Part shown: positions 26,701 to 27,069 of the stretch, one piece after another
How positions within the stretch are numbered: position 1 is the first letter of the stretch
Layout of the letters: each line of letters opens with the position of its first letter
Assembly (NCBI GenBank): GCA_027071315.1
Contig: JALSUP010000078.1
Location: forward strand, 1-32,360
Direction of reading: 5' to 3'
Length of the DNA: 32,360 bases
Origin: Sulfurovum sp.
GTDB taxonomy: Bacteria > Campylobacterota > Campylobacteria > Campylobacterales > Sulfurovaceae
Program-made: the position numbers and the translations under genes
Notes under the pieces: generated by a model
What the model saw: the letters and a program-made list of their open reading frames with translations, nothing else
The model's database searches: none
Told to the model about the DNA's origin: nothing

Positions 26701-26740
26701 AGACAAAGAGACTCTTCCCTCTTTGTCTACTTTATACTTT
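26701..26740 (+). terminator. ftsZ terminator hairpin
   Basis: AGACAAAGAG (26701-26710), 8-base loop, CTCTTTGTCT (26719-26728): a 10-bp perfect stem, followed by a T-rich but interrupted tail. A 14-base perfect palindrome GATTAAGCTTAATC (26678-26691) lies between the ftsZ stop and this hairpin. Confidence 0.65.
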
Positions 26741-26778
26741 CTCTTACGACACTACCCTCCTCAACTCACTCTATAAAT

Positions 26779-27050
26779 ATAGGGCACCTCCAATAATAGG
26801 TGATATCCAAAATGGGCTTTGCAAATGTAAGATTGTGCAAGAGATTTATGAGTCCTAGCCATAGCTAAGACGAAGTAAATATCTTGTGCAAGATTGCGTT
26901 TGCAAAGTCCACCCTGCGGGCATCTCTAGCTTTCGCCTATGCGTCGTTACTCTTTTTCACCTTAGCTAAGGCTAGGCTTTCAAAAGAGTGCCTAGCCTAG
27001 ACTAAAGCTAGAGATGTTGTGGGTATTACCTATTATTGGAGGTGCCCTAT
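26779..27050. mobile_element. 272-bp MITE-like element with 23-bp terminal inverted repeats
   Basis: Perfect 23-base inverted repeats at 26779-26801 and 27028-27050 (outer bases ATAGGGCACCTCC), with the similarity continuing imperfectly about 13 bases inwards. The ends read TA-GGGC and GCCC-TA, consistent with a TA target duplication as made by IS630/Tc1 or some IS5 relatives. There is no coding frame inside. Nested inverted repeats include CATCTCTAGCTTT (26921-26933) with AAAGCTAGAGATG (27004-27016), and ACTCTTTT (26949-26956) with AAAAGAGT (26982-26989), so much of the interior can fold. It lies between the ftsZ terminator and the lipoprotein promoter. Confidence 0.8.
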
Positions 27051-27060
27051 AGGATAATTT

Positions 27061-27069
27061 TGCTATGAT
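27061..27069 (+). promoter_or_regulatory. Extended -10 promoter of the lipoprotein operon
   Basis: TGcTATGAT, 29 bases before the ATG at 27099; an AGGG ribosome site is at 27088-27091. It begins only 10 bases after the end of the MITE-like element. Confidence 0.55.

Follow-up and report, generated by a model that had tools for sequence, protein, structure and literature searches.

Non-autonomous miniature transposons (MITEs) are usually regarded as passive leftovers of a single insertion sequence (IS). Among the described examples, MITEAba12 is 113 bp in length, is flanked by 9-bp target-site duplications (TSDs), and has ISAba12 as its partner (PMC6382973). TIMEs, which are derived from Tn3, build mosaic non-autonomous transposons (PMC4133298).

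The feature described below is located in a window of 32,360 nucleotides, the whole stretch of Sulfurovum sp. DNA that was analysed (contig JALSUP010000078.1). Judged from its sequence and that of its relatives, it is very probably a non-autonomous miniature transposon of the IS5 family. Searches of the literature on MITEs in Sulfurovum, Arcobacter, Sulfurimonas, or epsilonproteobacteria returned no description of the element; a mobile element that is apparently undescribed in the searched literature sits near many gene starts in Campylobacterota. With this element, one can ask experimentally if the interior of a MITE is functional in itself, and by what route a non-autonomous element switches partner transposase.

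The element and its insertion site

The complete element has type A ends and occupies 266 bp (26782–27047, no strand assigned), as defined by its repeat structure, its TSDs, and 13 copies in the source genome. The initial annotation had described a 272-bp element with perfect 23-bp terminal inverted repeats (TIRs). That repeat is exact (26779–26801 against a mirror ending at 27050) and extends to 24 bp when positions 26778 and 27051 are included, but the outer TATA on each side (26778–26781 and 27048–27051, no strand assigned) is a 4-bp target duplication, as identified in the test for exact 4-bp identical flanks, and so the element proper is shorter. Because the 23-bp repeat takes in three TSD bases, the TIRs of the element are perfect over 20 bp; they continue imperfectly to approximately 31 bp. 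The left TIR (GGGCACCTCCAATAATAGGTGATATCC...) spans 26782–26812 on the + strand and was recognized from IS5-family ISs with the same ends, while the right TIR spans 27017–27047 on the − strand and was assigned from its inverted-repeat match to the left end. The expected lack of coding capacity was borne out, as the 266-bp element is free of overlap with any ORF of at least 80 aa. The element consequently has the TIRs, the absence of coding capacity, and the length (below approximately 600 bp) of a MITE.

The region between the TIRs is highly structured. Core hairpin 1 (26813–26911) is assigned to the + strand, since the + strand gives the more stable RNA fold for 115 of the 116 copies, and core hairpin 2 (26921–27016), an inverted relative of hairpin 1, is assigned to the − strand, which gives its more stable RNA fold for 102 of the 116. 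Folding places a junction mini-hairpin, CCC-TGC-GGG, between them (26912–26920, no strand assigned), and the same stem is present in other copies. The RNA minimum free energy of the element is −150.3 kcal/mol, versus −72.1 ± 4.6 kcal/mol for 200 shuffles (z = −16.9), and DNA folding gives z = −15.7 versus shuffles. The nested inverted repeats noticed initially are real, but rather than the several alternative folds envisaged there is one main fold, which runs from an outer stem through hairpin 1 and a 3-bp CCC-NNN-GGG stem to hairpin 2. A search of Rfam 15 with the element yielded chance-level matches only, with nothing above gathering, and the element was not placed in any known structured RNA family of that release.

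The element is preceded by ftsZ (TIGR00065) and followed by genes for a 192-aa protein of family PRK04081 and a GSP_synth protein. The extended −10 of this lipoprotein/GSP_synth operon (TTGCTATGAT, 27060–27069, + strand) is outside the element, with its −10 hexamer TATGAT at 27064–27069. The element does precede the −10, as first described, but the gap is 12 bases after the TSD, or 13 bases after the end originally drawn, rather than 10. Upstream of the element, a terminator-like hairpin follows ftsZ (26701–26728, + strand).

The orthologous ftsZ-lipoprotein spacers of sister species, a comparison proposed in the initial annotation, lack the element in all 27 cases (116–226 bp, empty), supporting its insertion in the source lineage. 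These empty spacers share a conserved extended −10 close to TTTTGCTATGAT, which is therefore regarded as ancestral, and most of them have the ftsZ terminator-like hairpin, indicating that neither was brought by the element. The insertion replaced only the region upstream of the −10. It took place once the species had separated, immediately 5' to a conserved promoter in the spacer that separates ftsZ from the lipoprotein operon. Consequently, as far as the −10 is concerned, the data do not support the suggestion that the insert supplies promoter sequence, and a block by the insert to read-through from ftsZ is not needed. A locus-specific regulator of the lipoprotein operon (an attenuator, terminator, or upstream promoter element) might be considered for a strongly folded element located directly upstream of the −10. 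This reading is very unlikely, as the element is missing at 27 of 27 sister loci that retain the −10 and mostly the ftsZ terminator, and is also found at many unrelated loci.

Copies, target duplications, and the IS5-type partner

At least 13 copies of the element are present in the source genome (78–100% identity), and matches occur in 43 of the 78 congeneric genomes, so the element is not a single copy conserved in place among relatives. Exactly 4 bp of identical flanking sequence were found for 45 of 91 copies with GG-type ends, versus 8.3 in shuffles, and matches of 3 or 5 bp were not enriched among these 91 copies. The most common TSDs are TAAA, TTTA, TTAA, and TATA. Copies of the GAACCC type (n = 20) also have 4-bp duplications (8 versus 2.8 expected). 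The copies are mainly intergenic, with a median distance of approximately 30 bp from gene starts or ends, and have no orientation bias relative to neighbouring genes (31:21, p = 0.21). No match to the element was found in the phage records searched, and the plasmid records gave one, from Sulfurovum mangrovi: a diverged, unannotated copy of the core (L376, NZ_CP087125.1 95719–95919) located between TCA-cycle genes on a 395-kb plasmid.

Autonomous IS5-family elements with GGGCACCTCTAA ends and 4-bp duplications are present in Sulfurimonas, Sulfurospirillum, and other bacteria, and the end consensus on elements with an IS5-type transposase is GGGCACCTCTAA(A/T)AA. These relatives were found in a genome contig collection through their similarity to a truncated transposase of the source genome. 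They are 1.0–1.35 kb in length, have the TIR GGGCACCTCTAAAAA, and come from Sulfurimonas, Sulfurospirillum, Ca. Ruthturnera, and a Ruminococcaceae MAG; an exact 4-bp TSD (e.g., TTAA, TAAA, TATA) flanks 6 of the 10 ISs with GGGCACCTCTAAAAA ends that were examined. Since the element has the same ends and the same TSD as these ISs, the family that was initially left unassigned is IS5. Full-length ISs with shared ends thus exist, in other genera, and together with the multiple copies, the empty orthologous sites, and the 4-bp TSDs they uphold the original MITE-like reading. The GGGCACCTCTAA end is an IS5-type transposase recognition end and, with the 4-bp T-W-W-A target duplication and the many dispersed copies, marks the element as mobile; it may have been moved in trans by an IS5-family transposase encoded at another site in the genome or otherwise supplied within the cell.

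The truncated transposase gene of the source genome is of the DDE_Tnp_1 (IS5) type, lacks its 5' portion, and has a downstream end (ATAGGGTTATTAGAGGTGCCC) that is a type C TIR. Its closest intact relative in the genus (79% identity) is a full-length homologue in genome G021 that matches NCBIfam IS5 (NF033581) and Pfam PF01609 and lacks the ends of the element. No intact autonomous IS with the ends of the element was found in the source genome assembly. Approximately 19 contigs of this assembly stop approximately 120 bp inside an IS-like repeat with the end GGGCACCTCTAAAAATACCCTCCC (e.g., L021, L026, L031, L036, and L042–L059), the body of which is missing from the assembly. This repeat is most simply explained as a collapsed multicopy IS, one that has probably expanded recently. 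No IS with the end GGGCACCTCTAAAAATACCC was found in 20 congeneric genomes or in viral contigs. For the GAACCC and TAGACTTCTT tips no partner IS came to light, and a search of lone TAGACTTCTT ends for ISs revealed no transposase. At another locus of the source genome (L096, contig C206), CTAGGGTTTTTAGAGGTGCCC comes after a partial gene for a different DDE transposase, and the near-identical locus L097 diverges at this point, which suggests that an IS inserted in or beside a type C element end.

The ends and duplications also bear on the possibility that the element is of the REP/BIME type and is moved by a RAYT (HUH) transposase, a reading that would account for an inverted, strand-polar pair of hairpins. 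The hairpins are approximately 100 nt rather than 20–40 nt, however, and lie inside DDE-type TIRs with exact 4-bp TSDs, a TIR and TSD combination common to the element and IS5-family ISs. Placement among REP, BIME, or REPIN elements was consequently rejected, and mobilization by a RAYT transposase is extremely improbable.

A conserved two-hairpin core with interchangeable tips

The core consists of an inverted pair of hairpins of approximately 100 nt around the CCC-NNN-GGG stem. A nucleotide search of 399 Campylobacterales genomes identified the core in 71 of them and in 26 of 87 genera, with some of the matches partial. With a covariance model of hairpin 1 run on 397 genomes of the phylum, 59 were positive, every one a member of Campylobacterales, from about nine families; covariance models run on loci from other phyla gave no match. 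At the present locus, model R2 matches 26813–26918 (118 bits) and model R1 matches 26912–27018 (115 bits), while R2 also cross-matches 26914–27016 on the − strand. Each hairpin model recognizes its counterpart as well, in reverse orientation, which gives the core the look of a single hairpin unit duplicated in inverted orientation.

Within the genus, one core of approximately 214 bp is combined with three kinds of ends: type A (GGGNACCTCTAATAATAGGTAATACC), type C (GGGCACCTCTAATAACCCTAGATACT), and type B ((T/A)GAACCCTCTGAATAACCTAGACATT). The core is carried by GGGCACC, GAACCC, TAGACTTCTT, and other ends, and the tips of divergent copies include TAGACTTCTTGCA, TAAGTCCTTAATCAAG, ACTGACCTTACGCAC, TAAGTAATGAGGCATAAA, and AAGTGCCTAACCAC. 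In a tree of 116 cores from which the ends were left out, type B copies are scattered; forcing their monophyly costs 133 log-likelihood units (AU p = 1e-8). Even if only supported branches are counted, the end type must have changed at least 4 times. On this tree, the tips have been exchanged repeatedly. Recombination within the core could blur the tree, yet would itself count as exchange. An inner arm, AAAACCC.TAAC..TCTCAG, is common to a copy with a GGGCAC tip (L357) and one with a TAGACTTC tip (L348), suggesting that only the outer dozen bases may be exchanged.

Several further loci illustrate the modularity of these elements. Core-less minis of 34–54 bp with the same tips exist. In the source genome, MITEs with GGGCACC ends have another interior (CCATTAAGCTAAGG ... 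GCGACTTTAGTCGC; L025, L033, and L062 on contigs C186, C72, and C84), and since the interiors differ, the same tips also carry other cores. Two loci have GGGCACC ends and only hairpin 1 of the core (L335 and L332, the latter cut by a contig end), which suggests that hairpins can be lost singly. At one orthologous site in two species (L103 in G004 and L108 in G002; flanks 94–95% identical), the arms enclose the core in opposite orientations, and the core itself is 98.5% identical. One ftsZ-lipoprotein spacer that is otherwise empty (L138, genome G049) holds AATTGAACCCTCTGACTATTAACC, a sequence resembling an isolated remnant of a type B end.

As a conserved core is found with several different tips across the order, tips and core evolve as separable modules. 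Copies resident in the same cell may exchange tips through recombination or gene conversion, with one arm then copied onto the other through the palindrome, a step that would also yield compensatory changes.

Such changes are abundant in the core. Both sides have changed in 36 of 70 core pairs (285 cells versus 53 in shuffles), a signal that disappears when the partners are shifted. Between families the helices are fully replaced, while certain letters persist, among them CNNNGTT / TGCC and TAAGATT-TGCAA in the internal loops and, in hairpin 2, C...GTT, TAGC...GCTA, and TGCC. Divergent copies retain the four-part fold and a span of 268–282 bp despite their different tips, and nearly all of them retain the opposite strand polarity of the two hairpins. 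In all three orthologous insertions compared, the element has changed less than its flanks (95.5% versus 86/79%, 96% versus 93/92%, and 98.5% versus 95/94% identity). The compensatory changes, conserved letters, polarity, and slow change fit selection on structure. These observations, including the constant span, would be expected if the core were a functional structured RNA or single-stranded DNA module (protein-bound, for instance) under selection in its own right, with transposon ends serving only for its spread. However, arm-to-arm repair also gives palindromes compensatory changes, and slower change is explicable by gene conversion among copies, so that these processes can produce the same signs as selection. 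Furthermore, the opposite strand preference of the two hairpins misfits a single RNA strand, weakening the RNA reading in particular, and the lack of an Rfam match, of retention at any single locus, and of orientation bias relative to genes also argues against such a module. It is a possibility to be taken seriously, if somewhat on the improbable side. That the core is a functional nucleic-acid cassette of Campylobacterales, repeatedly captured by the ends of different transposon families, with selection acting on the core and the tips interchangeable, is rather doubtful and is put forward tentatively. For the IS5-family MITE proposed here, the hairpins may have a role in transposition, may act as RNA, or may simply reflect passive palindrome repair.

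Comparison with known systems

The element is ordinary in kind, being an IS5-type MITE located upstream of an existing promoter; it is unusual in having an order-wide structured core with several tips. Its terminal sequence and 4-bp T/A-rich TSD are like those of IS5-family ISs with the TIR GGGCACCTCTAAAAA and an NF033581-type transposase, but it lacks a transposase, and its interior bears no relation to theirs. Similar to MITEAba12, it is short, non-coding, and present in many copies, with TIRs and a TSD common with an autonomous IS (PMC6382973). In contrast to MITEAba12, the element is 266 bp in length and has an elaborate, conserved two-hairpin core, on which several unrelated tips are found. 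Its modular, mosaic composition resembles that of the TIME-made mosaics (PMC4133298), while the exchange of tips on one small palindromic core sets it apart from the Tn3-derived TIMEs. Finally, the presence of two hairpins in inverted orientation recalls the REP, BIME, and REPIN elements (PMC2817692, PMC3116915), from which the element differs in its much larger hairpins, its DDE-type TIRs, and its 4-bp TSD.
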